From assembly GCA_035610835.1 (NCBI GenBank), contig CM069441.1:85786677-85850676 (forward strand): a stretch of 64,000 nt of DNA, written 5' to 3'. Origin of the DNA: Ophiura sarsii (taxonomy: Eukaryota > Echinodermata > Ophiuroidea > Amphilepidida > Ophiuridae). Below, piece after piece: positions 5,940-63,882 of the stretch; within the stretch, counting starts at the first letter, position 1; every line of letters starts with the position of its first letter. The notes under the pieces were generated by a model. That model worked only from the letters and a program-made list of their open reading frames with translations, had not been told where the DNA came from and ran no database searches. The translations under genes and the position numbers were made by a program.

Positions 5940-6077
5940 TGTCAAGCGGGACTCGGAACACGTGTTCTTTTTCACCAATTATTCAATAAACCGACAAAAT
6001 TAATGATTTTTGGACCGGCATGTTCAACTGCTACGCAAGCAATAGCTGGGACGTCGTATCACTGGAATCTTGTCATG
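5940..6077 (+). CDS. Copy A exon: VFT lobe 1 strand with GPACSTAT loop
   Basis: 46 codons, phase 0 at both ends, acceptor ttttag and donor gtaagt. Encodes KLMIFGPACSTATQAIAG, matching the GABA-B segment in which a serine after the conserved cysteine contacts the amino-acid ligand. That serine is present (ACS). This is the first recognisable exon of copy A; the preceding signal peptide and first strands are missing from the visible sequence. Confidence 0.88.
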
Positions 6078-9000: not shown

Positions 9001-12000
9001 TGTGTAATTCCCGGTGTAACTACATCATTAGCAAACAAAAACAAACCAGTAATTTGAGATAACATGATCCGTACAAAGTGAATATTTTGTTAGTATACAC
9101 ATTTTTATGATAAAAAAAGGAAATTAGGTATACGGAGAAAAACCAAAGCATAAAATGATAATGTTGTGAGTGCAAACAACGGTCACAATCAATCAGTCAG
9201 CATGCTTGATATGCAATTCCCGGTGTAACTACATCATTAGCAAACAAAAACGACCTAGTAATTTAAGATAATATGTACCGTACACTGAAAAATAAATTGG
9301 TGTCACAGCGACGCCTTCTTGGAGTCAACTGTAAATGACACTTACAAAGGCGTTATTTTGACTCCAAAATTGGTGTAATCGTCAATGATATGGGTTTGCA
9401 CATAATTTACGGTGACACCGTTAAGTGTCCGACGGACACCTTTCAGTGATCATTTAGTGATTTACACCAAAACTGGTGTCAGATTAATTGAAATAACTCC
9501 AAGGGCGTCAATAGTTGGCGGGAAAGCTCACGGTTTTTAGAGGCGTCGAAGCAGCATGACACCAATTGGTGTAATTCTGACACCAGTTGGTGTAATTCTG
9601 ACACCAACTGGTGTAATTCTGACACCAATTGGTGTAATTCTGACACCAATTGGTGTAATTCTGACACCAAATTGGTGTAATTCTGACACCAATTGGTGTA
9701 ATTCTGACACCAATTGGTGTAATTCTGACACCAAATTGGGCGTCTATCAACATATCAACGCATGCGTTTTCTCGTCGCCATTTTGTTTGCATGTTACGAG
9801 CCGGTAAGACTGGTAAGTACCGATCTGCTCCATTTCCAGTCATTTTTGATAATAATTATGATACAATTAGCGTAATGTAAGCCTTGTTCATGTTGTTTAA
9901 TATTGCGCCAACTAACTGATGAAATGAATTACAATTTCATAGTCAGAGACTAGCATTTTGTTGGACTGTGTGTCAATGCATGGACCTACTAGTACTATGT
10001 GTGTGTTCGTCATGCATGCATACGATGATATGTGCAACATTACATACATGTAGCCCGATTTATCTGGCTCAGTGGTCATCTTTTTCATACGGACGTCTTA
10101 CATTACGCTAATTGTATCATAATTATTATCAAAAATGTCTGGAAATGGAGCAGATCGGTACTTACCAGTCTTACCGGCTCGTAACATGCAAACAAAATGG
10201 CGACGAGAAAACGGCTCCTAAACATGTGCTATCTCAATATGACTCTTAAGAGAGTCAATATTATACCCCATTTGGGGTGTAATGACATTTTTCGAAAATG
10301 GGTCCTCAGGTAACCACCCAAAGGTGTCAAAATGAATATGACACCCAAAGGTGTCATATTTGACACCCATAATTAGGTTGCCAACTTTAGGTGGCCAACT
10401 GAGGATCCATTTTTTGACGCTTGTTTTAGTGTCAAAATGACACCAAATTATTTGTCAGTGTACACAATTTCATTTTGTTAGTATACACATTTTTATGATA
10501 TAAAAAGGCATCCACTGCCTAATTGACAATCCTTTATTTATACGAAATAAACATCCCACTGGAGAACTTGCGCGCATCGACTCCTCGTGTTTTCAACGGT
10601 TATTCTTTTTCCCTGTAAATTAGGAGTTTCGGGTGATCAGAATTTTCCATTATACTCGTGTAAGACAGAGATTATCTTCAAACATCGAATTCGTGCTATA
10701 GTGCGAATTCACGTATATTCATAATTTATGTGTGTAAATAATAATTAATATTCACACATGAACTAATTTCATCGGTGATTTTTTTTGGTATACTTTAGGC
10801 AAAAATCGCACTCGCAGCATTAGCGATAGTATTACATTGTGACGCATAGTGTATACGTTACTATGTAAATCAAGATTAATGTTACCTTTTTGTACACCAA
10901 ATCATTTTTTTTGATTACCAATTAACTTTGAAACTTGGGTCTTTGTTGAAATAATAAAGACAATTATACTTCAAAACAATAGGTTATACACAACAAAATC
11001 GACCAAAGTTTACCATACGTCACTAAGTAATACCACCGACCGTACGTAAATTATGTGTTACCGCTGACGAATTAATACATGATTGACCAGCGTGTGTCTA
11101 TTCAAACAGGTCTCATATGCTGCCTCGTCTCCCGCTCTCTCCAACAAGAAGACCTACCCATATTTCTACCGCGTTGTGCTGCCTGATTCGAGATATAATC
11201 CTGCAAGAATCAAATTGATGGAACAATTTGGATGGAAACGAGTGGCTACAATTCATGAAAACCAGGAAGTGTTCTCATTGGTATGTCATAAATACTGATA
11301 GAATAGATTCCATTTATTTTATCGTATTGTGTGTCCTATTACTAAATTACTAAACATTTGAAGGCCCCTATTCTGACATCTGCATTACAATGATTCGCCG
11401 TGAAACAGATTATAACATAAACATTAACTTTTAGAAAATGAATAATATATAGATTCGGACAAACTGGTCTTTTAACAAAGCTTAAAATACATGTGTCGAA
11501 CCCCGGTCCCTCTTCACTATCACGGCGAAGAAGTACCCACTAGACCACAGAGGCTGTGTTTATTCGGGTGTCAGATGAACGAGCGCTTATATATCAAGCG
11601 GCTGAAATATATGTAGCCAATATTAGTTATGTTCGCTTATAAGCATGATTTAAGCAGAACCTATGACTAGCGAAACTCAATTAAATCCACATGAGGATCG
11701 AGCAAAGGATACAAGCAAAGTAAGTGAATTGAATAACTAATATATAGACTCGGACAAACTGGCGTGACTTAAATTGAGAAAGAACTTAAAATACACGGTC
11801 TCGAACCTCGGTCCATCTTCACTTTATAAAATACAATAGTAACACTAATTCACATTATTGTCAATACTGCATTTATTTCAGGCAATCGATAACCTGCATA
11901 CTCTGCTCAAGGAAGCCAACATCACACTGATCATATCCGAGAGTTTCGCTGACAATCCCGCTAATCAGGTGCAAAATATTAAGGTATTTATTTATTTAAT

Positions 12001-15000
12001 TGTTTCACACCTTTCTTAACCTCCGGTACCGTCTGATTACGATACTAAAATCCAGGTCGGCAAATCCCAAATAAAGGATGAGGACAATATAGAAAACACC
12101 CATCCCACTTCCTCGCAAATCATGTTTAATTGCGCAACTGAAAATGCTCAACTGGAGAAAAAATATCTATAGTGTTTACGGTATATATGTATAGAGGTTA
12201 TTCATGGGTTGTCGGGAATATAAACTGTGTTTAAAGGAAGTTTCCCCTCAAGCACAACATTGAGCATTATTTGTTAGAAAAATAATTATCGAGCCGAAAT
12301 TGCATAATTATATAGAACAAAACACCATACTAGTCACAAAAATGAATAAACACACCCATCACTCAACATGCAATTTTTAAAATTCGCGGCGATCGAAAGT
12401 CCCGGTTTCGATGACGTAGTGGGTATCGGTGCTAAAATTTGCGCATTGGATTGTATAACTATGACCTCATCGACACTGGGACTTTAGATCGCCGCGAATT
12501 TTAAAAATTGTATGTTGAGAGAATGCGGTTTTTATTTGTTTTTGTCATAAGTGTGGTGTTTCGTTCAATATAATTACAAAAGTTGGGCTCGATAGTTATT
12601 TTTCTAACATAATTATAATGCACACTTTTATGCTTGCGGGACACCTCTTTTAAGCATAGACCCTGAATTAAGATTTTCAGAGAGAAGACACAACCTGTTT
12701 CATGATATGCAGGCCAATGTGGTAGCATGATTCATGCTATGAATTGGACGTCATGCACCGATTAAATTGATGTGCATAGAATAGGCCAGGTGCGATTCCC
12801 CTATGTAGTCCGTTTCGCACGGCTACATGGATAACGTCTGTTAGGCCAAGTAACAAAAAGTACGTGTTTCACGTCCCCGCCCGCACCGATTTTTGACGCC
12901 GCTCCAATATTTTTCATTTTTTATTTTCAAAAATTCCTTCAAAATTCCAAAAAAAAGTTCGAACAAAATCAAAAATCTGTCTTTGTTGTGTGTGAGGGTG
13001 TACATCATTTTCAACTATATTTCAATGAAGTGAAGCGAGAAACACTCGTTGGCAAAGATAGTGATATGATTATCAAAAATATTCTTGCAAAAAGCTTGTA
13101 ATTTGGCTTCTGAAAAATAACAAAAAATCCAAAAATAACAAATAGTAAGGGCCGCCCTCACTGATTTTTAAAAAAAAGTCCGGACGAGAAACACGTTATT
13201 TTTGTTACTTGGCCTTATGTGAACGGCCCATTAAAATCTGATCTGGCAGTGATTTTGGAGTTGGTAAGCTGGTAGTACATCCCTCGATTCGTGTTAATCA
13301 AAAATATTCCCTGACAAATACATTAAATGGACTAACGTTAATGGGTTTATTTCGTATTTATTTTGAATTTATGTGGGTCCTGCTTTCATATGTATTTTTT
13401 ACCTCTTTTACACACAAAAAAGGAATATGTGAAGTTAAGTGAGGTTTTATTGTGGTTAAAAGCTAAGCACTTATACTATTGTCCCGCTAAAACGGAGCGA
13501 TTAAAAGATGCTTGAATGGTCACACGTTCCACACGTTCCATGTCACTCATGGTAATAAATATTGACTGATTTTTCATGTTTACTTTGCAGAATCAAGATG
13601 CGAAAATTATTGTGATCAATATGTACCAAACGATGGCACGGAGAGTATTTTGTGAGGTGTGTTTTCCAATTTCCTATACATTAGTATTTCAGTCAAAGCG
13701 CCAACTCTAATTTCCCGCAAATCTATACGTGACTAATGATTTTGTACTGTATAAACTGAGGACCAGTCAGTTTAAAATCATATCAAATTTTGTGACATGC
13801 CACGCACGCATGATTCTTTTCGGGTTTTTTAAAAGCATCGAGTAATGGCATATATTTTGTCCGTAATACCAATTTCCTAAGTAACACACACACAATTGAA
13901 CAGTAATCTCGTAAACAAAACCCAAATATCTCAGCAACTGACTGACTTTTCTTCCTATAATAGCTGCACGATTGAAAGGATTATATAAATAGACTGACCC
14001 AGTTTTGTAAATTAGTGAAATCGTTAGAACATTACTCATCCGCATCGTTTAGGATACCCGTATAAAGCCGTTTTCATCCTGATTAATTTACACAGAGGTA
14101 AAATTCATCTTAAGGGAAGTGTCAACCCTGTTTGGCGCCAAATTTATCAAGCACTTTAACTTTTGAAGTTTAAATGTGATGTACATAAAAGTATACATTT
14201 TACTTAATGAAATAAGTCGGAGAATCCATTTTTGATATCAAATTTTACTAAAAATTGTGATTTTTACATTTTAGCCCCAAAATCACCTTTTTTGGCGCCA
14301 ACATTTTTCAGACAACCTAACAAATCAGTTTTTGATTTAAATTTTGAAAATTTCACCAAAATCATCTAAAGTCAAATATCTAGGATCTTTTTTGGTTTTT
14401 TGGCTTAAAATGTTTGTAAATATTGACCAAAAGTGTCAACAATTTGTTTTTTTATCTCAAAAATCACATTTTGCTTGACACATTTCATAAAAAAGGGGTT
14501 TGACAGTACCCTTAAATTAGGCAATATTAAACACAGTCAAAAACGATGTTTTAAAGTGAAGAAAAAATAAAGTAAATAAGTTATCAAAGTAAAGCAATAA
14601 TAGCGATGATTGAACAGAACTCTGAGATTATTTCCATAATATATGAGAAATGAAATACTTTCATTTGATCAAAGTGTAATCTGACAGCTTTGGCATTAAT
14701 ACATTGGTATTAGATATTATCATATCGATATATTTGTCAACACAGGCTTACAAATTAGGAATGACAGGTGAAAGTTACGCTTGGCTTCTACTGGGTTGGT
14801 ACCAAAAGGGTTGGTATCTCGAACAAGATGATAACATCGATTGCACCAGAGAAGAGATGAGACAAGCCGTTGAGGGCTCCCTTTACATCTCCACTGAGAG
14901 TCTATATACGGGTACCAGCAAACGACCGACCGTCTCAGGCATTGTAAGTTAGCACGGGAGCATAAATTACAAGACGTGTTGGTTTGACCGCATCAATGCA

Positions 15001-18000
15001 TCGCAAGTAATCTTTGGCTCTATAATTACATTGATTACTAAATTATAGTTCTGTGAGAACGTCCTTGGCCTTCCTGAGTATAAAATAAATTCATTTTTTC
15101 CCCAAATAATTTCACACAAATTATTAGAATAATAACAAATATCTATATTACCTAATTACCGCAATCCAAGACATTCTCAATTTTGATCATCATCTTGACA
15201 TCAATGAATATGTCGAAATATCTTTAAATAAAATCATCAAGAAATGTTAATTAATGACAAATATTGTTGAACTACATGACGATATTCCTCGTTCTCCATC
15301 ATTCAATCCACATGGATATTATGTTATTGACATTCAAACAACCATCGTTATATCTTCGTCATTTGCCAAATTTGTTCCAGATTCATTAATAAAATCAGCA
15401 ACTTGGGCCGGCAATGTCCATAGATGGTATATTGGCAATGGGTAACGCGTTATCTGAATTTCTAATAAATTAATAAATCGTCGATTAAATCATGTTAATC
15501 ATATTATGACTTACGGCACGGCAGAACTAGAACGTATGCCTTATACGCATATAAGTGTCGTAGGCAGCACTGCAGAACTTTATAGTCTGTTTGGCCATAA
15601 CGAGACAGTGACGTAACTGCGTACATTCTACTAATTCCAGCACATAACGCGCACGCCTACTCGAGGCGCTGGCGTATACACACGAGCGTTGAAAGGCGGA
15701 AGATACATATGCGTGTGACAAGCTGCGCCTGTTAAGTTACGTCACTGCCCAGAGGAAGCCAAATAGAGTATAGTACGTATGCCCCATACGCATAAGTGTC
15801 TTAGGCAGCATTGCAAAACTAGTACGTATGCCTCATACGCATATAAGTGTCTTATGCAAAACTAGAACGTATGCCCCATACGCATAAGTGTCTTAGGCAG
15901 CATTGCAAACTATAGTACGTATGCCTCATACGCATAAGTGTCTTAGGTAGCATTGCAAACTATAGTACGTATGCCTTGTACGCATTTAAGTATCTTAGGT
16001 AGCATTGCAAACTATAGTACGTATGCCCCATACGCATAAGTGTCTTAGGCAGCATTGCAAACTATAGTACGTATGCCCCATACGCATTTAAGTGTCTTAG
16101 GTAGCATTGCAAACTATAGTACATATGCCTCATACGCATATAAATAGCTTAGGCAGCTGCAAAACTAGTACGTATGCCTCATACGCATATAAGTGTCTTA
16201 TGCATCATCGCAAAACTAGTACGTATGCCTCATACGCATATAAATGTCTTAGGCATCATTGCAAAACTATAGTTCGTATGTCTTATACGCATATAAGTGT
16301 CTTAGGCATCATTGCAAAACTATAGTTCGTATGTCTTATACGCATATAAATGCAAAACTAGAACGTATGCCTTATACGCATATAAATGTCTTAGGCATCA
16401 TTGCAAAACTATAGTTCGTATGTCTTATACGCATATAAATGTCTTATGTAGCATAAATGTCTTAATTGCTAAACTAGAACGTATGCCTCATACGCATATA
16501 AATGTCTTAGGCAGCATTGCAAAATTAGTACGTATGCTTCATACGCATATAAGTGAATTAGGCAGCATTGCAAAACTATAGTACGTATGCCTCATACGTT
16601 TATAAAAGGTAAGACCTTTACGATAGGCATCAACATAATATTTTGTCACCATACGTACAAGCACCCATAAAAATTGACCTGAGAGCAATGCACAATATTT
16701 CTACATTATGAGTGAAATATTGTATTGGTCTCATTTCAAATTTTAACAGAAAATATGACACTTGAAATGATCCCAGACCCTGTGGAATAAAGATTAATGA
16801 AAGGGGTAACCGCCCTTTGATGAAGAATTCATTATGCCATGATATTGATTCTAATCTACAGACAGTGTCAGAATTTGAAACAGAATTACAAGCAAGACTT
16901 GATCAGCCCGAGAACCAGATGTTCACGTGGAATGCCCGAGCTCCGTATTCTTATGACGCTATGTGGGCTGTTGCTCTCACGCTAAATAAAAGTGTGGAAT
17001 TATTAAAAACAAAGACATTTCGCGATTTGAAGACGCGGCGTCTGGAAGATTTTACTTATGATGATTACGAAATGGCCCAAATGTTTCTAGATATTCTGCA
17101 AGACATACATTATGATGGTGTTTCGGTAAGATTGATCTTTCTTAATTCACAGCCTTAATAACAATGACCGTTTATTAATTGTCAAAATACAATGTATTGT
17201 TATTTGCCTTTTAAAATAAATAAACTGTATCACTCAATTCTTCCCAGTAGCTACTTTGGAACTAGCTACCAGTTGCGGTCCTAACCGGAAAAACTGTGAA
17301 CGGCATTAACACAGTGTCAAACCGTGGGATTCTATTTACGAACGAAAAAAACCCACCACTTATTTCAAAATCTGATTTTGAAGTAATTGAAGATATTTTA
17401 GTCTCATGATTATAAATGTAATTTGACCAAATACATGCATCTCTAGGGGAAAAAAAATCAGAGATAGAGGGCGTTACATGAAGAAGATTGTATAATATGC
17501 CTTTAAGGTTAATACAACGTAATGGCATCATAGTTGACCATCATTATGTGTTACTTTTAAGGGATCTGTGAGTTTTGTGGGTGGTGATCGAGTTGCTAGC
17601 TTTCGCATCGAACAGTTTAAGGGTAAGGATACATCGGAAAAGGTTTCATTCAGGGGTTTCATTGTTGCCAAGGACTGTGATATATCAGTTCAAAGAGAGA
17701 TTACAAGAAAGTAAAGTATGTAAAATATTACACATTTGTAATGAAAATGATTGATCAAGGAATTAATTAATTAATCAGTCTATTTTGGCCTTTACACTTA
17801 ACTTGTTGATAGATAGCTTTTCCCATACAATGACAGTTTCAAAAGTCAAGGTGGAATCACACTTGGATTTCAAGATTTAAAATGGAACGTAGTTCCGTTG
17901 ACCCTATACAATGCCTATGTTCTAATCACCAAATGATAATTAAAATTAAAGCTGTAAATGTTTTCGTCAAAATGTCCCTTTTATAGGGTTTCTATAACCT

Positions 18001-21000
18001 CGTGAATTTAAATTGTGAGCAGTGCTTATTTAAGACTCCAACAGTATATTTGGTACCGATTTTGAGTCGAATGCGAACTCCAATTTGAAATATAAGGTGC
18101 TAAACAATCGCATGAAAATAACACAAGACCTGTGCTATACAAGGAGTGATGGAGTTATATCCGATGACTAATTTCACTATTTTAAACGCAAAACATCCTT
18201 CATATGACAATCCAAAATGTTCCTTTCTTCTTTAAATAATACATTTGGCTTTTAACAAGAATTTAGAAGGCTATGTAAACTGATACTATTTCTTAAATTT
18301 AATGTACCCATACTGATCTCTGCTGCATTTGACCGGCAGCATTTGTTGTTTTGTTTAATACCTTATAAAATAAAAAGAGAATCGTACTAATCAATCACTG
18401 TGTTAATAGATCAATTTGAATGTTATTGTAAGGGATGGCATCCAGATTGGTATGGATTGAAAACCGTCGAACGGAGAGGGTAAACGCAATGAGATAAACG
18501 GGCAGTTTTGTATAGATAAACGGAATGCAGTTAAAGAATGACCCGCAAATACGAAAAATAATGTTTGCTCCGTCGTAATTGCCCAATTATAGGTATTGAT
18601 CGATCGATATAGTATATTGTCCGCGTGTAATTGGTCAATAGTAAAGCAAACCAATTATCGGATAACAATAGGCCACTTCTCACCGTTTGTTTGCTTACTT
18701 CCCCGTGTGTCAATTCGGTGTTTCGGGAAATGCGTTTAGCGATGGTCATCGAACGCAATGAACAACTCCCTAGTACATACAGCCAATGCGTTTTGTCAAT
18801 GCGTCGAACGTTTTTCAATCCGTATGAATCTGGATGCCGTCCCTAACGACACGACCATTTTTGTATTTTGTGCACAGCATCATGCGATACAGGTTGGCAC
18901 GGTTATGGTGACGACTGTTTTTCCTACGTGGTTAACTGGTTACCATTTGATCTAGCCAATGAACAATGTTTACATCATGGTGGTTATTTAACAACCATCA
19001 TTAATAGAGAAGAAGAACAACTCCTAGTTGACATTTGGATGCGATGGGATTTACAAGAAAAACCTGATTCATGGTAGGTTATTTATATTGTATACAAAAC
19101 TGTTAATTTCCTGGCAACAAAGCGATTGTGTTTTGAAAATGTCACAGACGTCAGTGCAACATGTTTGAAGTTTGATTTGAAACTATATCAATATCAAGTT
19201 ATCAATTAAACGATGTAGTCAAATTTCTCCCATTTCTAACTCCACTTACACACTTAATAATAACTGAACTCACTACACATGCTATATACTTTTTTATTCT
19301 AACTTACTTGACAATTTTGATTAGCGTATTTTTATTTTTTTCGTATGGAGTGCATGATGTTATATAAAACATATTTTTAAGTTGAAAATCGTATAGCCCG
19401 TGAAAAGTATAATTATCTTAACACAATATGGATTATTTATTAAAATTGCTGGTAGTAATTAAGCATTTTGAATAAGTAATAACATTGCGTTATTATTGTA
19501 TTTATGTATTGAATGTATGACGTGCAAATGAATTAAAAAATAAACAAAAAATAAATAATATACTATTATTTAATAAAACCTCCTAAAACAATCTTACACT
19601 CTGTCGAGTAGGGGTGTGTTGACCTCCACTGAAATTGATGATTTATACATTGACATTAATTTTGATTTTAAGTTATTAGTAAGACAATGATCAAACTAAG
19701 AAAATAATGTTTCCAGGAGTTGATATATATCTAAGTCAGAGAGATGCGATATTGATGCTGCAATTATACTTGGCTCGTAGAACATTTTTCCCCTTTGTCT
19801 TGAGAACGTGAAGATATTCCAATTTATCAGGCGCACGTTTGTAAGTAAAATAATTTGAGGTTTTTCGAATGGAATAAAATATGTTATATAAATTTGATTT
19901 ATCTCAGTTCATGCTACATAAAACCTTTTAAAATAGGTATTGCACTCCGTTGAGTATGCGTGACGTGTGTAGACTTTCACTTGAATTTATTTTAAATTGA
20001 CATAGATTTTGATTTTAATTTATTTGTAAGACAGCAATTAATAATAGAAACAAAAAAGAAAATAATGCATCTGGGAGTTAATAATATATCTAAGTCAGTG
20101 TGATACAAAATTGAAGCTGCAATGGCTTGTAGAGCAGTTTGATTTCCGCGTTCTTTAAGATTGTGAAGATATTCCAATTTATTAGGTGCATCTTTATTTC
20201 TAAGTGAAATGGAGTATTCTGAGTTTTTGTATGGAATAAATGATGATATACTTCACTTGATGTAAATTAATTCATGCTACATTGAACCGTTTAAAAAAAG
20301 TCTTACACTGAAGTATGCGTGTCTTGGCCTCCACTTAAAATTGATTACTTATAATGAACTGATTTTGATGAAGGCCTATATGTACCTTTAGTAAGACTTG
20401 GCAAATAACAGTAAGAGAATAATGCATCAAGGAGTTTATGGTATATAAGACAAATAGACAAAATATTGGTGCTGTAATTTTAATTTTATTTTTCCCCCTT
20501 GATGCAGCTACATTGGACTGGTATGGAATGGCAGCGACTATAAATGGCTAGATCCAGGTGGCGTTGTTGATGTGATATGGCTGACAAAACACTTCGAATT
20601 ACCACCCTCGCCTCCCTATCAACGACGATGCGTGAGTGTTGATTTTAGCAGAAATGGTAAATGGACTGCTACCAATTGTTCTAAGGCAATGCCATTTGTG
20701 TGCAGAAAAAACAAAGGTAAAGTCAAACTTATTATTTATTGGTAAGGGTCTGTTTTATTTTTTAAGGTATGTATTGACCAGTTCGTCAAACGAACAAATA
20801 ATTAAGTATTGACCAAATAAATAAAAGAACAACATTTTGAATGATTCTTTTTTATGATCATTTACTTGTTGAGACATGTGGAGTTATAATATCTGATAAA
20901 AATAGTGAATAAATCACAAATTTCAATTAATGGTGGACAAGATAAATCTAAAATGTGATAAATACTTTCTTTTGTTTTGGTTTTTAGAATTTCGCTTATC

Positions 21001-24000
21001 GATTTCGTGTACAATCTAGATTTCATATGGAAGCAACCTTCTCAGACCAATTATCCAAATTTTCTGACGGTTTAACTAGACCAAGTTTTTATTGGGGCAA
21101 GAAGACACAATAAAGACCAATCGAAAATTATGATCAATACTTCCTTTTATCAAGAGAGGGTCGTATCAATCTTATATATAAACCAACCAGAACATGTAAT
21201 AATAGTGGGTGGGGTACCGCGCCATTTTGCGCGATATTTTGCGAAAATGATCGTGGTTATCACGTAATACGTACAGTGGAAAAAATAATTTACACTGTTT
21301 TAACAAAATGCACTATGGGATTGTGTTACCAGCCTAAAATTAAAGTGGTCGCAAACTTGCTTACAATTGTATATTAGCCTAGCTATAACAAATTAAAAGT
21401 GACATCTCTGAAAGTGTGCAAAGGAGAAATTGTTGGGCACACTGGTAAAATGATTTAACAACAAGTTTTGCTATCATTATCAATCTGAAATCAATCTAAA
21501 TAACTTATTTATCGAGCAATAATATAATTGTTTACGCATTTTAATTGTTTAGATACAAAGTTAAATAAATCAAGAGTTAAATGATAGATAAATAAAATAA
21601 AAAGAAACTATAAACGCATGGGCGGTCTTTATTATTAATAAAAATTGACATAACAATGATGTTACATTAATCCACCATCAAGTTTAAAAGATAGAAAAAT
21701 AAAAGGATAACAAGCAATTTACGGGAATCGAACCCGTGATTGCCGATTGCCAACGACATGGCCAACGTATTCACGCCACAGAGACCAATGAGAATAAATG
21801 TGATAGTTTAATTATTTAGCCATTTCCATTTATTTATAACGAACAGATTTTTATTGTGCCATTTTTGCCAAATGTGTGTGTTTCTTTCGCACAAAATGTG
21901 TTTATAATGTGATTATACTCCTTATTTTTGAAAGAACGGAAACAAACGTTGATATTTTCGAACACAAAAAATGTAATTCTACATTGCCGGCAAACACTCT
22001 GTTCAAAGGCACAAAAAGTGGACTTGTTTTAAGCATTTTTTTGCAATTGTGAGGTGTGTGGATCGTGTTTCTTTATCAAATTGGTTAGAAATCCATCCAT
22101 TTTAGAACATCTGAAATTTAAAGTTGACCCTTACACCTGGGAAAGTATGATGCCAAGGGCATATATTTTGCACGTAAATCCAAAACAAAGTTAAGAAAAT
22201 CGACCAAAATATGACGTCATGACCATTGCTTCGGGACAAAATGTCGCGGTACCCCCCCCCCCTTATGTATTTATTTCTAACCCCAAATGTTATGTCATGT
22301 CCACAATAGTCACTGTAGAGTTACATGTATTTCTCTTTATCTAGAATTTCTTGAAAAGCAAATTGGGATATATTCTCCGGACGATGGGGGCAGTATAGAG
22401 CTGTTTGAGAACATAACATGGGCAGGTAATTATCGGTTGCTACTGATGTTATTGTTACAGTAGACTTGAAGTAAGTGGCATATCGGGATCATGATCTAAC
22501 AACATTGTTACTCTGACGGGTTAATAAGAATGATATTTAGTGTGTTATATTTAGAGAATAAAGGTATTGTTTTTAGACCGTACCCGTGTTATATTGTCTG
22601 ACATAAATGCGGACGATAGTATTATTTTAAGTAGAACAACGACGCCGCAGGCGGAGTTGTTCTACGCAAAAAATAATACTATCGAACGCATTTATGTCAG
22701 ACAATATAACACGGGTACGGTCTAAAAACAATACCTTTATTCTCATTCTTAAACAATCATACTTTAGACATTTATCAAAGAAATAAGAACATTTTATTGT
22801 CCACATTTGACAATTTTTACCCCTGCTAGGATCGAATAACCCACAAACATTCCATCCAATCACATGCGATGAGTAAACCATGCGTAAGCGTCGCGCCGGC
22901 ATAAACGCTGGAAAAGCGCTAAAGACGCACTGTAGAAGTTCGCGTTATGGAGCAAACCACGCATTGTGAAGGTCGGGCGCACTGTTAAAACGTAAGCCCC
23001 ACCTCCCCGTGTTCTATTGTCTCATCTAGATGTCGCCGATTTCTCTGAGAACCAATGAGATTGCTTAAACTTTCTTAGCTGTTTAAGAATATACATTTAA
23101 GGTTTTCGTAAATGATTAACATGTACACAATAGTGAGGGTGGGGTACATGTATTGTGACGTACTAGGAACACGTTGACTTAGTAATCAGGTTATTTTGAA
23201 ACTCTTTTGCAGGAGGCAAAGTTCCTTTAGACCACACTCCAAAAATAATAATCAACATTGTGCGGATTCACGAAGGAATCGATTGGTATCTCTACACAGC
23301 CATGTGTCTTCTAGCCGGAATTGGAATTGTATTGGCGCTATTCTTTCTTGCATTCAACATTTTTTATCGAAATCAGAAGTATGTATCTGATGGTCTCGAT
23401 TTATTTCAATTCGATTCTTTTTTCAAAATCAAAATAAGTAGTTTAAACCCAATAATAAACTATAAAAGACATACACAATATTATAAGCCAGTATAGGCGC
23501 ATACCAGATCCGATCTTATAGCATGGTGTAAAGATTTATCGATTCGGATGCAAGGGATGACTCGCCATAGGGTTTTCCGTTGAAAGTAAATGAATACACA
23601 TTATGGTTGAGAATGTAAACAGTTGGATCATTCTGACACTCTTTCTATTCCCTTTTTAACTGGGGGTCTCTAAGTGGCGCAATTTAGACAATTTGCCAGT
23701 CTGACATTTCCTTAGCAATAGAGGGCGCTGCAATATAAAATATATAATGGTAATTTTACTCTTGATATCCATGCTCACAAAACAATTTCATTTCCAGAAA
23801 AAGGCTACATTGGTATTCAAATGCATTCAACATTATTGTTAACAACTATAAAACAATTCCTACCGCTTTAAAAAAGCAGTTCGATAGAATGTATGATCGA
23901 TACCTTGTTATTATGTTCATATTTAATGTATGTTTTGTTCAATGTCATTTATTCACAGATTTGTAAGAATGTCAAGTCCAAACTTGAATAATCTGATTAT

Positions 24001-27000
24001 ACTTGGAGCCATATTAATATATACCAGTATCTTTATTGCTGGCCTGGACAGCACCTTGGTTTCTGAAGCCATCGAGATAATTTCGTGCCAGGTAAAATAT
24101 AAAAGAACTGATTGACTTTTTATTTTGTAGGAATTTCTCTGAAGTCTTTATGAAGGAATGACATTTAGTGAATTTCTGAAAGTAGCCACCGTATCTATAG
24201 TCTATACATAAATCCCAATTCACAGGGTAAGAGTGTCGTCTGTACATTCCCAAGGTCGTCGGTTCGAATATCCAACTGAGAGCAGTTTTTTCTCTACATT
24301 TGTGTACTTTTAACCCTTTGATAAAAGATTGAACTCGAGTTATTTGAATTAAATATTTAGCAGTCTCTATTCCATGAACTGATCATAGATACAAATTCAA
24401 AAATAAATACTGTTCCCGTGAGTTATTATAATACAAACCTTACATATTTTGTATATTTGGTGTAAACACTGTTCTAGGTTCGAGCTTGGGTATTCTCCGT
24501 TGGATTCGTCTTAGCGTTTGGTTCCATGTTCAGTAAAACGTGGAGAGTGCATAAAGTTGCTGCTTTCAAACAGCCTAAACGAGTGGTGAGTATTATTATA
24601 TTTTGTTGTTCAAATCTCCCTAACATCCTTTTGACAAACCTGTATCCAAAGAAAAAATTGACAACATATATTGTATCTTTTAAACTTAAAAACAGGGTGA
24701 CGTTTACCTCAATTGACCTTTGTGCCATAACCCGTTAGTAAATATGTCTTCTTTCTCTTCATAGATTATCACTGACAACCAGCTCTTTATCATGGTTTTC
24801 GTTCTGTTTGCAATCGATGTGTTAATTTTAGCAGTGTGGCAAATTGTCGATCCATTACAAGTCGGAGTAAAGGATCTATTAGTACGAGTAAGTTAGTAGG
24901 GTCATCTCGAGTAATCCCGTGACCACGAGAGCAAAGATGCATCTCTCAGTGGATTTGTCTTCTAGGAAGGTCATTTAACATAATTATTAAGCGGGTGTGT
25001 CAAGGGCCATCAATCTAAAATGGACGGTCACAAATTAAAAATGCTTCAATTAAGCTGACAAGAATACCTAATCGGTTGTCTGAGCACAAGGATTCCAAAA
25101 ATAGTACATTTTGCCCCATTTTAGATGTTTGGTTACCACAAGTTGTCGCGAGTTACCATGGATCTTATTTGGTTCTCTCTGAAGATAGCCATTCTGTTCG
25201 GCTATCCATAACCGGTCTTCTGTAACATTGTAGCATGAGCGCTTATAAAATCGATCTGATTTCATCAACATGATGGGGACGTCTCTATTGTCCGAAGGCT
25301 CAATAATCCGAAGGTTCTATAGTCCGAAGGTTCTATAGTCCGACGCGTAATTTACCATTCGCTAGTCCGAATAAGATAAAAGATTCTTTAGTCCGATAAA
25401 AAGGGTTCTCTATTACGAAGGTTCTCTAGTCCTGTTAAAAAAGGTTCTCTAGTCCGAAAATAGGAAGGGTGTTCTTTAATCCGAATAATAAAAAGGTTCT
25501 TTGATCCGAATATTGCAAAGGGTTCTATAGTCCGAAAATTGGTAAAAGGGATCGGGTATCAATTATTTATTTTACAGGACGATCCAGACGTAGCTAATCA
25601 GCGCCTAGTACCATATGTAAAATTCTGTACATGCAATCTAATGTTCTATTGGCTTATACCACTGTACGCATATAAAGGACTTCTGTTGATCTTCGGGGCA
25701 TTTCTGGCCTGGGAAACGAGAAAGGTAAAGGCTTATATTATATTACATGCATTATACTTTTTTCTCTTTATTTATGACCTGCTAGAGTATTGTTAGCATG
25801 AAAATCATTAGAAAAATGTAAATTAGGAGAGATCCCTATTAACAATGATAGATTTGTTGTTACCTCCAACGTAGGTTACTATTCCAGCCCTCAACGACAG
25901 CAAACTGATAGGCATTAGTGTGTACAACGTCATCATTTTATGCGTAATAGGACTATCCGTGAGCTTCATCATCAGTGACGATCCATCTGCCTTATATATA
26001 TTCACCAGTTGCATCATTATATTTTGCACATCGATTACACTAATAGTTATTTTCACTCCAAAGGTGAGCATTAACCATAATAGATCGATGTTCACGCCAA
26101 GGCAACTAAGACACGTCAAGTCACCCTTCCTCCAATATAAATACAAATACCAGATAAATGGATCATCAATATCGCACACATTTACATGATTCATGATAAC
26201 ATAATAGGATTAATTTTCCTGTGTATATATGAACATTGAACAAGACCAACAATAATTGTAAACAGTTTAGTATTTCAATACTAACTGCCGTCGTTAATAA
26301 GGTTCGACGTCTTTATCCATTCCTTGCTGTCTGTGCAATCTTTATAATTGAAAAGCTTGTGTCCCTATTTTGTACTGTTATTAGCACATTAACCCCTAAA
26401 ACTCTGGCAGGCTCATTTTTATTCAAACTACGCACACAAAGCGATCGGTGAAGGGGGTACAAACTTGTACTTTGTCGCACCAGTGATTGAACCCGGGATC
26501 CTGCGTGGCAGGCCAGTGACTCGATCGCAACAACACTATGATGACGCGATGAGATATACCCAGGTAGACCGGGCTCAAAGCACACTGCCGGCGTGGTATT
26601 TCCTACTATATGGCTGGGTTATGGTTATGGTTAAGGCTCCCATAACAGAGCACCCTCGCTTTTATAGACAATCACGGTATAAGAAGAAACCTTGGGGACA
26701 AGACTGAGAACGATCCCGTATAAAAAAACACTTAGAGATGAACTTTGGAATTTGCCTCATTATTTCACTCTTTATTATATCATGACGAAATAAAGCTTAA
26801 TTCGAAAGAATACAAATTATAATAGGTATTACTTGATTCTAATTTTAATTTTTGTTTAGGGCGCTTTGTTCTTTCTGGAAAGGCACTTTATAAATGTTAT
26901 TTACGCATGGGGTGTGTATGTTTATGTGTATAGTATGTAGGGGTGTATTATGTAGAGATGGGTGTACTTGCGCACCCGCCAATTTGAGGACTTTTGTCAA

Positions 27001-30000
27001 TACCAGCCGGAAATGTGAGGACCCAAAAAAATGTGAGGACATTTTTCAAGTCCTCGGATTTGAAATGCATAAAAACGTATAGGTGTCCTCACCCCCTAAG
27101 GTGTATGGCAAACTATTCCATTAGACGTCAATATACATGACATACTTTTGTCCCATAACTAATTTTATATGTAGGGGTGTATGTGACATGTTAGTTTGAT
27201 ATGGCGTGGCACCATGTCAGGTAACTGACAAGGTTGATGACATTTAGTGTGTGCATGCATAATTCTGTCAATGTTTTGCCAACGCCTGACATAACAAAAT
27301 ACTTGCATGCTTTATAGTCAGCGTCGTAATGCTATGGACATATTCCAACAATGGGTGCGTATGTGTGTGTGGGGGGGTGCGTGCGTGCGTGCGTACATGC
27401 GTAAACCGGAAGTGCGTACCGGGTGGTTTCAAGAAATGACCACGCGTCCTGATTGGTCAATCGTGAAATCGTTTCCTGCATGAACGTATAGTTGTTCGCG
27501 CATTTCAGTCATCTGGATGCAGCTTCACAAACAAAAATAAAACATGCTCGCGTGAAATAGCTTGAATTACGTCCGTAGTATTATGACAGTGACTTATAGT
27601 ACATTATTTCATTTACAACCATTCACACTGACAATAACAATCTACAAATAACATCGGATGCTACCACACTCTTTTATTATTTGGTTTTACGGTTTACCTG
27701 TTATTTTTATACCGTAGATAATATCAGTGATTAAATATCCCGACGGCGAACCAATATCAACTATAAAAAATCGCTCTAATACAACTACAGACAAAATCGA
27801 CTCGGACCAATTAAATGGCGTTCTTCGTGAAGAGAATCGAAAGCTTAAGGAACAACTAAAGCAGGTAGCGTCATAGTTTGATCAGTTCCAAATTGTCGAA
27901 GCCTCCTTACAGCAGCGAATGAATAAAGAAGAACGCATGAAAGCAACGAGCGCACTGTTCATCATTATGTGTGACGCGTGCGTGTGGCCAAAAACATAAA
28001 CCATGCGGCCATAATTGCTCGCGAACGCTTGGATTACTTTTGCGCGCGGAGAGATCAAAACCGAATATTTCTTGCCAATTTGGAAATTATTAAACTATAG
28101 GTTTGTTTATCATATTTTATAATTTTTTCAATAAAGATAATGCAACAGAATACTGGTTCATAAAGGGATTGACCACACATACCATATGTTCAAAGAATAT
28201 TATTCTAACACCCTCTTTTCACCATGTTTATTAATAATTATTACCGGCTTCATCATCCCTTGCTCTAACTTTTATGGGTCATCTTACCCCAGGAAAGAGG
28301 GTACTTTTTTGCCCCCAGTTAGTAATTTGACGATTTGGTATGGCGTTGTTGCGCGACATAAACAAATCTTAGAAAGTAGGGGAGGGGGGAGGGGATGCAA
28401 CAAAATCCCGCTGGTGAGACTAGGGATATGTTGCATACGAATGGTTCTAAATATATCTTTAGACAATTTTGGATGAAACATTTATATAAATGTAATATTG
28501 TCATTTCAATATTATTATATCGTTCTAGAAATTCTTGCCGCGTATTCAGATTACATCATATATCCGGGGTTTATTTTGTATATATATTTCCGGGGTTTAT
28601 TTTTTATATTAAATATTTCCTGGACTTATTTTGTATAATATATTTCCGGGTTTTATGTTGTACAGGGTGTCCCAAAAGTCTATGCACGACTTCTAAGCTG
28701 TATTTCACAAAATATAAGTCGTATTGAAAATATGAATACATATTTAGAAAGAGGAGATGTGTGAAATAATTTTGATACCAAACATTGGAGTAACATCTGT
28801 TTGTAATGCCACCCTAGAAGTAAAATATGTATTACTGCAAACATGTAATTTTATACTTCGGAGTAATAAAGTTCATGAATCCATACCTATTGAGATTAAC
28901 AAAAATACGGAAAATGATCCGTCAATTGTAATAATATTTAAAATTTTACATTGATATCATCATAATAACAAACTATATCACACATCATTTTCGTTTCTAT
29001 AGTGAAATCTAATTTAAATGTTTTCCATGTATATAGAGACGTGGGCTAAAGCAGAAACACAGACCTAAACAATTGAATAACGTAACAGAAAAGTGAACAC
29101 ACACATCACACAGCTGTCAAACATGTTAAAATTTAAACTTAGTGGATTATTTTAATGCTGCTTGAAGGCCTCATCGAAGGTTGTTTTACCCATTTAGAAT
29201 ATGTTCCTGTGTTCAAAAATGTATCCACCAACTTCAGAATGGATATTCTTCCTGGTGCGCGTTTCACTTTGAAATGTTTTCTGAACTTTTGTTGAGTAAG
29301 TTGAACTGAATGTGTTTCAGCGTAGAACCATACAATTTGTATTCGCTTATCTATGCTGTAAACCATCTTGAATGAAGACTTTTGCTGTGCAATGTTGTCT
29401 ACTACGCTTATTTATGTTGTGAGTGACCGAGTTTGGTATTAAATAACATTAATGTTGCAAGGTAAGCAGTGAACGGTGACTAATGAGCAACGTTGCTTTC
29501 ATACCGTTAATTTATGCGCACCTTTAGCAACAATGTTGTGTACTTGGTATGGGTTGGTCTGGCACACGGCCAATGACTTTCAACCAGTTTTATAATGTTG
29601 TGGGTTCACCAATAGGGTTGTGTTTGGTATCAAATTAATTACCCAAATCTCGTCTATCAAAATATGGTTAAATTTATACCATATGATTTATATTTTATGA
29701 GATATGACTCTTCAAAAACGTGCATAGACTTTTGGGACACCCTGTATATAAAGAGCGAATGTAAACAATAACCAAACAGACATTAATAACGTTTCGTATA
29801 AGCGAATAGAACTGGCGACTCAAAGGAAGAGCTCTAATGGGCCAGTCAATTGTTTGATTGCTTCATTGCCTCAAATAACTAACTTACAATAATAATCGTT
29901 TACGGGATGTTGAAATCGGGTTTTAAATGCCAATGAAACAACGTACAGAGTTTAAATACGAGATGATGAGTAAGACATGATGTAAACTCACAATTAGTGA

Positions 30001-35893: not shown

Positions 35894-36109
35894 TCACACT
35901 TTCTCAATGTCATTTCCATTGTTATCATAACCCTGTTTGTCGTCATTAACGGTGTACGATTCCGATTTGGAGTATACCGTCCCCGATGAACAGCATTCGC
36001 AAACCATAGGGCCACACCATATGCCACATCCTGAAGTCGAGCTGTCGTGAATTCCAGCACTCGATGTTGAAGAGGTTCCGTTGCTCTGTTTCGTCAACTC
36101 TGTTTTCAA
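35894..36109 (-). CDS. Copy B terminal exon, cysteine- and serine-rich tail
   Basis: 71 codons plus TGA, acceptor tttgtag. Begins LKTELTKQSNG, continuing the coiled-coil register, then SSTSSAG and a cysteine cluster (CGIWCGPMVCECC), ending NDIEKV. Nearly twice the length of the copy A tail and unrelated to it after the first ten residues. The cysteine cluster might be lipid-modified and the E-K-V end could fit a class III PDZ ligand; both are inference. Confidence 0.82.
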   Translation of the reverse strand: MKTELTKQSNGTSSTSSAGIHDSSTSGCGIWCGPMVCECCSSGTVYSKSESYTVNDDKQGYDNNGNDIEKV

Positions 36110-39100
36110 CTACAAATGAAATAAGTACCATCAACATCGCATTAGTTGTTTTCACAAATTAACAGTTTTATAGAATTGGTTTATGTACAGACAAAGTAAT
36201 GCATTAACATGGTCTTAAATGCACCATTTACAATGTAGCTCTATACCCATAGGCGTATGTTGAGCATTATCTCAGATCTACATACTACTCAATTTCTTAT
36301 CCGAACCTACGGAGCGTTTAAAGTGCCATTAGATGGCTACATAATTATCTTGACAAGTCGACATATTATCAACGTTATGTTGAGATAGTCACATATTTTT
36401 TCTCACATTCTTGACTTAGACAGTTTTTTTAGTCGTCATGATGATATAGACTATATTGTCAAGTTGACTTTACAAAACATAGATGTCGTCATGGCGAGAT
36501 AGGTTAACTTGAAGAGTCAACTTCACAAAAAGTAAATGTCGTCATGGTGAGATAGATTATCTCGTCAAGTCGACTTCACAAAAAGTAGATGTTGTCATGG
36601 TGAGATAGATTATCTTGCCAAGTTGACTTCATAAAAAGTGAATGTCGTCATGGCAATATAGACTTTATCGTCAAGTCGACTTCACAAAAAGTAGATGTTG
36701 TCATGGTGAGATAGATTTTTTTCCCCATTTTAGGTTCTTCTACAAAGATAACTCAAAATATATTGTGCGAGTGCGATTTGCACTCGTATTTGATAGTGGA
36801 CTAATTTGGCTTACCAACAGGCCGTTTAAAAAAACAAAAAGACACGGGATGTATTTTTAGTTAATTTTCAAACTCGTGGGACACTTTTTTGAGACACCCT
36901 GTATGTATTGAAAACGTACCTCTTTCACCGTGGACCGTAGCTTGTCACATTCTCCAGATAAATCAATACTTATTACGCTTGTACGACTTCTGAAAACTGG
37001 TTCACCCTCTGGGTGTTTATATACAGAGATTACCTATTATAATTAATATAAACAAACCAATAATTTGTTATCTTGATAAGGCTCATCACATCAAAGTTTT
37101 TTGGGTGTTTTTTTGTTGTTGTGTGTTTTAGTTTGTATTTTGTTTTGTTCTGAAACTTCTGTGAAATTAAGGTTGCATCTTCATCCAATATTTTCATAAC
37201 GAAATGGATGATATCAAAACACTATAGTGGTAGTAGGCCTAATATTTGATACTGATGTTAATACAGTGCAACAGGCCATAAACACTCCAAAATGCATCTT
37301 TTCATATTTATGGCCACCATTCAAATGTAAATGATCCAATCAACTTGGGACTTTCACAGAGTTTAAAATAGTAAAGCATCTACCAGTTTGTAGTGGGTTT
37401 TTTTAAAAAAAATGTCTTATTTGCATCTCATTTGCATTTATGCTGTTTTAAGTTGGAATTAATATTTTCAATGATTTCGTCAGACATTTTGGCGAAACAT
37501 GTTTTATCTAAAATTTGTACAAGAGGATTTGTTGATATTATTTTTAACTGGAAATCCATCCCCTGGCAACTCTTGACTGTCTTCATTAATGCCTTATTCT
37601 TGCGTTTTCCACCAATAGCTGCATTTGAAAGTTATGATAACGGAAAATGTGATGTGTCGATGACCTGTTGCGCTGTACACACATGTGTTATTTTTTTTTT
37701 TAATTTCGAGAAATACAAAACCGACTTAAACTAGACCTTTGTGCCAGAAAGAAGGTTATTTATGATAGCATATTTCAAAATCGAATACCTTAATTTCTTG
37801 CATTTGAATGTCTAATTAAATTCCATTATAAACTTGAAAAACAGATCTCTAGCAGCAATAACACAGTGTATAAATTCATTGATAAATGGACACAATTTAA
37901 AAAGTGTTGTAACGAGTAATAATTGTATAACTTTATACTTAATTGTGTGCTTTATTCATGTTACTCAGGTGGTGTACTGTATGTTTTATGTATTATTGTA
38001 ACTTTATTGTGATTTGTATATGTTTTGAGCGATATGAAAATATAAAAGAAGAAAGCAAAGTGTGTGCAGTGACGTCAGCGCGTATTGAACTGATTGCACC
38101 TCATTATCGCGCGCGTTGAAATACGCTGACGAATCACAGCACTCACACCTTCACGTAAATGCTACTTCGACCTCTAAAATGAAATTGACTATCGGCAGCT
38201 TGAAAGTTACCCCCTGCATCGCGCTGGTTCCTAATTTGGAATACGATTTATTCCGTTAAATACACAGTCGAGTTTCCTTTCATATTTAAACTCCAGAAAG
38301 TGAGATTCCTCTAAAATGCGCTCTAGTATCACGGAGTTGATAAATGAAGTATATTATACAAATATTGACTGCAATGAGGGGCATGGTTCAAATTATAGGC
38401 CCAAGGTGATCTCGAAAACCAGACTATGCCCCGTGGCGTTAGCCGAGGGGTATAGTCTGGTTTCGAGATCACCGCGGGCCTATATACCCGATGAAAGCAG
38501 TCAATATTTGCGAATGATTTATATACCAAATATAAAGATTGTTGTCATTTGATTGGTTAAAAGAACATTTACTATAGACTTATTCACCTTAGGCCAACCA
38601 AAGTTCCATGAAATGAAGGTAAACGAGACCAAACCTTCACTGTTCTGTTGCCTAAGGAAAAAGAAAAATCGGACAAAAATATCGATTTCCGAATTTGGAA
38701 GGTTTGTCACTGTTTATTCTTACCGCTAAACTGCTAGAGGTAGCGATTCTAACAGCGTATTTCACTTGACATATTACATTTAGGCTAGCTGAATCCATGA
38801 TATCTTTGATACCTTCTTCGTCAACAAGCAAAACCAGAGCTATTTGCTTTTTAGTCATTTCTTAAAACGGTACAACAACACGAGACTGACCATAAAATTG
38901 TAAAAAAACCTTTACGCAGCAGAAAAAGGTAAATGTGCAAAGTCAAAAGTCAGCTGTCAAGCAACGCGTAAATATATACAGGGTATTCAAAACGAAATTG
39001 TTCGCCGTCTTATTGCGTTTCGTCAATCAGGGCCCGGGCGATTCGGGTGTTAGAAACGGGTCGCGGAATGCAGATCGCTTGATTCGTGAACCATGGGGTG

Positions 39101-42100
39101 TGGCGTCATCAAAAAAAACTATGCCCGGGCATAGTTGATTTTCATGACGTCATATTGAAATTGAAGGCATAATTTGATTATCCCCTCACTTTTAACCAAT
39201 CAAATGACAGGAATCTATGCATACGGTATATAAAACATTCTATACTGGAAACAAAACAATTTTGTCCGTATAGTGGAACCCACTATGGCTCAAGTGACTC
39301 AGATTTTTTGTGTTCTGTTTGGCCTTACCTTTGGTGTGAATAGAACCACTAAAGTGAGCGTGGTACAAAATATTATGATGACGGAGGTGAATATGAACAG
39401 CGTAGACGTGTTATTACTGATGAGAAAACTAACGGAAACTCCCACAATGCATAGCACGATGACGTTGTAGACACATATTCCTATGAGCTTACTGTCGTTT
39501 AGGGCCGGCATTGTGACCTACGAATATATATATAAAAACATTTCAGATTCAAAATATGGCTATGGAAAATATATGTGCTTGATTAAAAACATCGTGTAAG
39601 TCTTTTATCATATCGGAAATATTTCAATACCGTATACCGTATAACATTTGCATGATTTTCTTGGGTGTAAATAAATTTCGTTAGTCATAGGTTCGGCTAG
39701 AATCATGCTTAGGTATAGGTCAACAGATACCTACTAATTTTTTACCTAGATTTACAACATGTATTTCTGCCGCTTGAGATTCTCACCAAAAATTTGGTAT
39801 ACATTAGCGTTCGTAATTCTGGTGCCAAGTGGGTAAACTTGTAGCGTTAGGTCTTTGTTAATTCCATTCACGCCAGTTAGTCCGAATCGTTATATCTTGT
39901 AAAATATTATAGCTATTTTAGTACAATTCCAATACAAACTGCAATAAAGGCAGTATTGATTTGAGCGAATAGCAGCTGAATCTTTTTTGACCAAAACCTT
40001 TTTTGTTAAAGACCAATGATGATATATCACAAACATATTTTCAAAAAATAATATGATCTCGTATAATCTAAACAAAAATGTGTCGATCACAGCGTCATGA
40101 TTCGTGCGCTCACGATCATTACAAAGGTTGAGCGTGTCCTTACATGCAGTGCGTTCCGAAACAGTCGCGATTGGTCAATTACCTATTTGTTTACAACTAC
40201 GTAACATCTTCCGGTTTTACTGCGCCCTTGCCATCGACACATTTTTGTTTTTGATTATAGCAGTAATAAATTAAACAATGTATTACCTTTCTCGTTTCCC
40301 ACGCCAGAAACGTGCCAAATAGCATCAGAAGTCCTTTGTAACCGAACGACGGCACAAGCCAATAAAGGAGGTTCTTACAAGAACATTGTTCAATATAGGG
40401 AATGATGCGCTGATTCTGAACATCGGGATCATCCTGTAACGGTTAGTAATCGACAAAATGATGTCATAATGTTTGTTATAATAAATTTACAGAACGCGTT
40501 CATCCTTTAACCATGACAGTTACCCTATTGCTCTCGCAACTTTTATAGTTGTTTGTACGCGTAAATTTATCCATAAAAAACCCTAACATTTTCACGTCTC
40601 ATACTATAGTTTCACGAAGTGTAACTTATTTTAATTTTTTAAAAACTTACCCTTTCGGACAAGTTAGTTATTGCCACATACAGTGGATCAAAAATTTGCC
40701 AAGCAGTCAAGATACACACATCAATGATGAAGAATGCAAATACCATGGCAAACAGTTGGTTATCTGTGATAATCTGTAGGGAAGGGAATAATAAATAAAG
40801 AGTTAAAAACTATGTCCCTTGATAAATGAATAATATATTACTTTATATATTACGGGTATTCCTAATATAGATAAAGAGTTAAACGAGCTCGCTGGCGGAT
40901 AACTCTTGATGTATTATATAACTTTATTAAGTATTTTTATTAAGTCGAACAGAAAGATACTTCAAATAGCATTTGCATAATACTACATTACGGCTTATTA
41001 GTTACCACTCTTTTCGGTGTTTTGAAGGCAGCCACTTTGTGAACACGCCACGTTTTGCTGAACATTGATCCGAACGCCAGCACGAAACCAACAGAAAACA
41101 CCCAGGCGCGAATCTGAAAGCAAGAAAGCCTTAAGATTTAATAGATACACAATATCTTGATGCCTAAATGACAATTACATTTGTGGACATTTAGGATGCC
41201 CCATGTAAAGTAAAACTAACAGGCAACAATTCATATAATAGTTCACAATAGGATATTCCAAAACTGACACTAAACTTCAAAAGCCATAAGATCATGCAAA
41301 ACAAAGCATTTAAAAAGATTTAAAAAGGTTTGTTGAATTTCATAGAAGTAAAAATGCTTTTCGAAACCAATATATGAATACTCACATATTAATATTTCAT
41401 CCTCATATATCGAAGGATTATATCAGAATGGCAATGATCCACTTTGGCGTGAAAATCTTCAGAGATGCCAGTTGGTTTTAGTAGTAGATCATAGACGTGA
41501 CTGAGCAAGTCCTTCTAGTACACCTAAGGGACCACCCTCAAAACTAGCAACTGTATCTACGAAATCTTTTTACAAAAACTGCAAGTTGACGTATGTTGGT
41601 AAGACCTCTCGACTTTTTGGAGTCCGCTTAACAGAACATCAAGCTGAGACAATACACGAGATCAGAGAGAAAGGTATCGGAGCAAGAACAGTCAAAACCA
41701 GCTTTTTCGGAGCTAGGGCAAACCATGTAATAGACTGGGATGAGGCCATCATATTAAGTCGTGAACACAATAGGAGATCCAGAGAGCTATGCAAGGCGAT
41801 GGAAATCAGAAAGAGAGGGGACCAAACACTCAACCGAGAGGAGGGGACTTTTTTGCTCAGTCATGTCTGTGATCCACTACTAAAACCAACTGGCAACTAT
41901 GAAGATGCCGTTTCTTCCCGCCAAAGTGGATCATTGCCATTCTGATGATATCCTCCGATATATGAGGATAAAATATGTATATGTGAGTATTCATTTATTG
42001 GTTTCGACAAGCAAATTGTTTACTTCGATTAATGTTCAGTTTCCCCCCGCAGTGAGTCAACTATCATATCTGTAAAAAGTTACACGAGGGTCATTTAAAA

Positions 42101-43528: not shown

Positions 43529-43568
<40 letters not shown>

Positions 43569-43571
43569 GCC

Positions 43572-43668
<97 letters not shown>

Positions 43669-63841: not shown

Positions 63842-63882
<41 letters not shown>

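Follow-up and report, generated by a model that had tools for sequence, protein, structure and literature searches.

What is a C-type lectin domain doing inside the ligand-binding clamp of a GABA-B-type receptor? The question is raised by a 64,000-nucleotide (nt) stretch of the genome of the brittle star Ophiura sarsii (assembly GCA_035610835.1, contig CM069441.1, positions 85,786,677 to 85,850,676 of the forward strand), which we refer to as the window. Within it lie two convergent GABA-B-type receptor genes, gene A on the plus strand and gene B on the minus strand, each with the design of a Venus-flytrap (VFT), C-type-lectin and seven-helix (7TM) receptor. Gene A spans 5940 to ~27876 and gene B spans 63445 to ~35894. 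We found 17 exons for each, counting a probable tail exon of gene B, and the internal junctions follow the GT-AG rule, with phases that agree. A and B have their exon phases in common and are 54% identical across 785 aligned columns when the joined parts are compared (836 amino acids for A and 776 for B, also the input for Pfam).

A first-pass annotation of this DNA had described two genes with a lectin placed within the VFT of a GABA-B-type receptor and had proposed a domain search on the joined proteins. That search recovered all three expected families in the same order along each chain: ANF_receptor (4.8e-48), Lectin_C (1.7e-9) and 7tm_3 (5.3e-57) in A, and ANF_receptor (4.5e-36), Lectin_C (8.6e-17) and 7tm_3 (7.5e-57) in B. 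The Lectin_C bit scores were 38.8 for A and 62.3 for B, with a Pfam cut-off of 22.6. Apart from ANF_receptor and 7tm_3, the lectin was the sole Pfam match above cut-off; no NCD3G was matched between the VFT and the 7TM, and a Peripla_BP_6 match in A fell below its cut-off.

In both genes the lectin is a two-exon cassette flanked by phase-1 introns and situated between the last two strands of the VFT. In gene A, the strand before the insert (...RIEQFK) is encoded at 17562..17622 (phase 0-1), the lectin at 18878..19073 (196 nt, phase 1-2) and 20508..20716 (209 nt, phase 2-1), and the strand after it (EFLEKQIGIY...) at 22345..22425 (phase 1-1). In gene B, on the minus strand, the corresponding exons are 48105..48165 (phase 0-1), 47738..47933 (196 nt, phase 1-2), 45826..46043 (218 nt, phase 2-1) and 44863..44940 (phase 1-1). 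The lectin exons are not divisible by three singly, and the pair is, at 405 nt in A and 414 nt in B. Alignment to human GB1 shows a short turn connecting the two equivalent strands, just as had been stated for GABBR1. Gene A continues far upstream and downstream of the interval first annotated, 17562..22425. The GT-AG sites, the phases and the Pfam order bear out the lectin-in-VFT architecture for both genes, and on this sequence evidence we regard it as close to certain.

The best match to A in the protein collection was Amphiura filiformis P0001 (58% identity), annotated as GABA-B receptor subunit 2-like, and its three Pfam domains are the same in kind as those of A and B. From 94 matches we hand-picked 24 near-full-length relatives from brittle star, starfish, sea urchins, sea cucumbers and acorn worms. 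Counts out of 26 refer to A, B and these 24; they omit lectin-free rows (such as P0021, P0025-P0027 and P0029-P0031) and fragments or mixed models (P0023, P0032, P0033 and P0089). In 24/24 aligned relatives the insert lies between the same two strands and has the same six cysteines, and the six-cysteine long form of the lectin is found in 26/26. A chance lectin match is ruled out by these cysteines and by the Pfam scores in two genes.

Across three protein searches, precomputed PF00059 occurred with PF01094 or PF00003 in 27 proteins, 27/27 of which bear echinoderm or hemichordate names. Among the 7,991, 1,184 and 7,990 candidates scored in these searches, a capped number that does not establish absence, no lectin-bearing receptor was found outside Ambulacraria. 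A family lectin profile, made from the lectin sequences of A, B and the 24 aligned relatives, matches the 24 by construction, among them eight that have no precomputed PF00059. This profile matched 41 of 149 proteins. Two of them, P0148 and P0149, are lectin proteins that lack receptor domains and were also matched in one of the protein searches; the other 39, all of GABA-B type, are spread over 12 species: the brittle star and starfish Amphiura filiformis, Patiria miniata, Asterias amurensis, Asterias rubens and Acanthaster planci; Lytechinus variegatus, Diadema antillarum, Holothuria leucospilota and Apostichopus japonicus; and the acorn worms Ptychodera flava, Glandiceps talaboti and Saccoglossus kowalevskii. 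Because 24 echinoderm and hemichordate relatives carry the insert, these comparisons indicate that the lectin-bearing receptors are an old ambulacrarian family and not a peculiarity of this genome.

We built trees without the lectin columns from 62 and 81 of the 149 proteins, in which lectin-free and fragment rows were partly included. These are quick trees without bootstrap, with support given by the Shimodaira-Hasegawa-like approximate likelihood ratio test (SH-aLRT). Both trees contain a branch with SH-aLRT 100 that sets the lectin receptors apart, and on its far side are GABBR1 rows (fish, frog and acorn worm among them in the 81-row tree) and insect GABBR2 rows. In these quick trees the lectin receptors group neither with GABBR1, from which that branch divides them, nor with GABBR2. 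Three crinoid rows, P0094 in the 62-row tree and P0135 and P0140 in the 81-row tree, are placed outside the lectin clade and show no match to the family lectin profile. Gene B pairs with P0001 in both trees (SH-aLRT 100 with 62 rows and 99 with 81), which by itself points to a brittle star as the probable source of the window.

The lectin side of the 81-row tree holds 47 rows. The lectin is present in 34, partly present in 4 (three from Amphiura and one from Holothuria) and missing from 9, all of them Amphiura. The lectin label has to change 4 times in the 81-row tree, with partial rows excluded, and 3 times in the 62-row tree. These changes are compatible with one gain and a few losses of the lectin but do not prove the direction. 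Five lectin-free Amphiura paralogues (P0021, P0025, P0026, P0027 and P0029) form a group inside the lectin clade and are the most telling case. In the 4 whose models cover the region, the join reads QQLREDLLEHKIGDF or close to it, and QQLREDLLEHKIGDF is what clean removal of the cassette would be expected to produce. The lectin-free Amphiura filiformis group probably reflects secondary loss followed by duplication.

A structure model had also been proposed as a check. In the AlphaFold model of the relative P0001, the VFT is intact, with 405/407 residues of human GB1 superposed at 1.9 Å, and the lectin insert is confident. By structure comparison, the VFT fold is like that of GB1 and GB2. Among the best 50 rows of each structure search, GABA-B folds and other clamp folds fill the ranks, and solved lectin chains are not among them.

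The GABA pocket of human GB1 is described by residues S130, S153, H170, E349, Y250 and W278 (PMC12499500). The equivalents of Y250 and W278 are retained in 26/26, and that of S130 in 22/23 rows with a residue at the position. At the H170 position H occurs in 0/26, and in the E349 column E occurs in 2/26, both acorn worm. The full GB1 set is absent from A, B and all 24 relatives. In GB1, H170 and E349 are the contacts for the amino end of GABA, and in the 26 these two are mostly lost. On the coupling side, 24/26 have [AG]LNDSK in the third intracellular loop, resembling insect GB2 rows and unlike vertebrate GB1 (NDHR). Among solved chains, GB2 matches A best over the helices and GB1 best over the VFT. 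Because of this loop and these matches, one chain seems to combine a ligand-type clamp with a coupling-type bundle.

How might such a receptor work? The account we lean towards, by a modest degree, is that these genes represent a third GABA-B-type subfamily of Ambulacraria with a non-GABA ligand, Gi/o coupling and a lectin that docks independently of Ca2+ and tunes clamp closure or receptor pairing. Its starting points are observed directly: matching splice phases, one order of domains, a common insertion site, six cysteines framing the lectin, a predicted VFT that is intact, and trees in which the lectin receptors cluster. Its functional steps are inferred. The hairpin linking the last two VFT strands would have gained a lectin-fold domain a single time, in the form of a phase-1 exon cassette. 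A small ligand with a carboxylate anchor, other than GABA, would close the VFT, and closure would be relayed to the GB2-like helices and on to Gi/o. Beside the C-terminal hairpin, the lectin may dock a protein or other partner, and not a sugar through Ca2+; that partner could belong to the receptor's own cell, to an adjacent one or to the matrix. Occupancy of the lectin would then shift the balance of the VFT between rest and activity, or decide which receptors pair.

Several observations weigh against this proposal. With a predicted template modelling score (pTM) of 0.60, the P0001 model does not settle the angle at which the lectin stands to the VFT. Conservation in the receptor is lowest in the lectin, with a mean pairwise identity of 27.2% (325 pairs), compared with 60.3, 54.3 and 49.7% in three parts of the VFT and 56.8% in the 7TM. 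In some starfish the lectin is shortened (P0020 has 100 residues and P0022 has 107) and much of the long loop is lost. In the pocket, S153 is kept in just 7/26, and a one-residue gap disturbs the comparison at E349, where the two acorn-worm rows do have E. The order of the deep branches is weak, some rows are long, gene A is not firmly placed within the clade, and some Amphiura paralogues have no lectin.

The lowered conservation and the shortening would also fit an insert that is a tolerated spacer or pairing element without a partner of its own, in which the disulphides are kept for folding and exit from the endoplasmic reticulum. The cysteine frame is alone well conserved within the lectin, and some Amphiura genes have lost the insert and retained the rest of the receptor, as a spacer would allow. 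However, outside Amphiura and one partial Holothuria row, all sampled rows of the clade keep the insert, across four echinoderm classes and the acorn worms, and half-cassettes disrupt the frame in gene A. We think it unlikely, if still worth weighing, that the insert is such a spacer.

A bolder reading is a receptor with two inputs, which would signal solely when a small ligand in the clamp coincides with a protein partner on the lectin, its GB1-like VFT of altered specificity and its coupling-competent GB2-like bundle sitting in one chain. We are doubtful of this reading. If true, it would make the family a contact-gated metabotropic receptor retained since the echinoderm-hemichordate ancestor.

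The lectin could instead be a true carbohydrate receptor, binding glycans on microbes, in mucus or on adjacent cells and reporting them through the GABA-B-type helices. Pfam recognizes the C-type lectin fold in full, and the gene B domain has its best sequence matches among solved structures in lectin domains of the mannose-receptor family. Remnants of a sugar-binding loop may be seen at or near the loop position in KPD (P0001), QPT (B and P0016) and EPS (P0022), and fast change in the lectin would suit recognition of changing targets. C-type lectins that bind sugar in a Ca2+-dependent manner have EPN or QPD in the loop and WND before the fourth cysteine. In this family, WND precedes the fourth cysteine in 0/26 and EPN or QPD stands at the loop position in 0/26, EPN (P0014) and WND (P0034) occurring elsewhere in the domain; the loop is also truncated in some starfish. 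Canonical Ca2+-dependent sugar binding was rejected on these motifs. Ca2+-independent sugar binding, which does occur in some lectin-like receptors, may still apply. The first-pass annotation had suggested a glycan, a protein or another partner for the lectin. Of these the glycan is the least favoured, because the WND of the Ca2+ and sugar site is absent in 26/26, and a protein or other partner is preferred as the likelier inference. Taken with the fast change, the absence of these motifs argues against Ca2+-dependent sugar binding and in favour of one of two options that the data do not tell apart, a protein partner that changes and a spacer that is tolerated. A carbohydrate receptor strikes us as less plausible than the spacer.

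A further alternative is that the cassette is optional and the main transcript skips the lectin exons, yielding an ordinary GABA-B-like receptor. Skipping both exons does preserve the frame and restores a normal hairpin in each gene (...RIEQFKEFLEKQIGIY... in A and ...VEQLQEYSEKRVALY... in B), and four relatives (P0023, P0033, P0109 and P0110) are annotated with a partial lectin, the family lectin profile covering part of the domain only. However, lectin-bearing models are annotated in 12 species, and computed splicing that skips one lectin exon of A brings stops into frame. Half-lectin models would break the reading frame under the exon phases seen in gene A, so they look like annotation errors. 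No pair of isoforms of one gene with and without the lectin was seen, though isoforms were not examined. An optional cassette appears improbable. A separate lectin gene nested in a receptor intron, for which we found no supporting point, is extremely improbable and was rejected, because the phases fit on either side in A and B, the cassette is in frame as a pair only, a half-cassette of A runs into stops, and annotated relatives carry the insert at the identical residue.

The remaining exons complete the two receptors. The first exon found for gene A, 5940..6077, belongs to the VFT, as do 11110..11280, 11882..11983, 13591..13656, 14746..14943 and 16862..17125; by alignment to human GB1, the last three hold the equivalents of Y250 and W278 and the E349-equivalent region, respectively. 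Searching with the N-terminal parts of five relatives (tblastn) gave nothing convincing upstream of 5940. After the insert, the stalk and first helix are encoded at 23213..23378 and further 7TM exons at 23959..24091, 24478..24585, 24765..24887 and 25578..25724, all supported by Pfam, and at 25875..26063, which carries the GB2-like third intracellular loop. The coiled-coil-like tail exon lies at 27718..27876 and may alternatively splice at 27864 to a further last exon; no such last exon of gene A was found.

Gene B runs past the window edge at its 5' end, and its first exon lies outside. The first exon found (63275..63445) and those at 62217..62318, 61159..61224, 53425..53622 and 50477..50731, the last with a tentative acceptor at 50731, encode the VFT. 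The stalk and first helix follow at 43714..43879, and 7TM exons at 42897..43029, 41006..41113, 40651..40773, 40287..40433 and 39329..39517, the last with the GB2-like third intracellular loop. The tail consists of a coiled-coil-like exon at 36920..37033, its end taken from the donor list, and a probable last exon at 35894..36109 with a cysteine-rich tail and the stop. All these exons are on the minus strand.

By eye, the C-terminal tails of A and B look like a heptad-type helix, and the P0001 model has a helix at 964-988 with low to middling confidence. The tail of gene B (36109-35894) and those of several relatives end in a short cysteine-rich motif resembling GCGxWCxGxxCGC, possibly a site of lipid attachment; no such tail motif was found for gene A.

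The introns and flanks contain several repeats. Plus-strand frames at 1356-1739, preceding the first exon found for gene A, and at 7000-8599, within the intron after that exon, resemble by eye the reverse transcriptase of non-LTR (long terminal repeat) elements. A tandem array at 15769-16606, with units of ~51-142 bases, occupies the gene A intron directly before the VFT exon at 16862, and a near-perfect inverted repeat seen by eye at ~22555-22735, possibly a small mobile element, lies in the intron following 22345-22425. In gene B, the stretch 58540-60558 of a large intron has tandem arrays whose periods are 295, 393 and ~129-139 bases, and long simple repeats, (CAA)n at 43507-43669 and (GATGTT)n at 63637-63944, lie near coding exons.

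Compared with known systems, A and B are like GABBR1 and GABBR2 in having a VFT, a short stalk and 7TM_3 with no NCD3G in Pfam, a VFT that superposes on GB1 in the case of P0001, a GB2-like third intracellular loop and a tail that looks coiled-coil-like by eye. They differ in the lectin within the VFT, in their separate position in the tree, and in the loss of H170 and, mostly, of E349. GABA-B1a has N-terminal sushi (complement-control) domains, which bind protein and are placed ahead of the VFT; one Xenopus GABBR1 row lists PF00084. GABA-B1a thus also bears an extra module on a GABA-B ectodomain, but its sushi domains are appended before the VFT, whereas the lectin of A and B sits within it. 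Lectin domains of the mannose-receptor family share the six-cysteine long form with A and B and are the best sequence match of the gene B lectin. Here, in contrast, the lectin lies within the VFT of a G protein-coupled receptor and lacks WND in 26/26. Polycystin-1 and other receptors are membrane signalling proteins with an appended C-type lectin domain, outside any ligand-binding clamp. They resemble A and B in that respect but belong to a different protein class, and the lectin of A and B is inside the clamp.

The customary picture of a class C receptor is a clamp followed by helices, in some cases with a cysteine-rich spacer between them. A 2025 class C receptor survey states that GABA-B receptors have the ANF domain alone and describes functional constraint on the architecture of metazoan class C receptors (PMC12716839). 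The lectin-bearing family is an exception to that layout. The first-pass annotation knew of no described GABA-B receptor with such a lectin. As to the literature this stands, and we found no published description of a VFT-inserted lectin in a GABA-B receptor in open-licence full text; as to uniqueness it does not, given the 24 aligned relatives that carry the insert. Recognition of the architecture appears to be new, and the sequences are not, because protein databases already include the predicted proteins.

Relatives bear ordinary database names, such as 'GABA-B receptor subunit 1/2-like', so studies of GABA signalling in echinoderms could otherwise misread this family as GABA receptors. The family also marks an insertion site within the VFT clamp that evolution has tolerated and that is kept in echinoderms and hemichordates, and it offers a natural experiment on how an inserted module acts on clamp closure.

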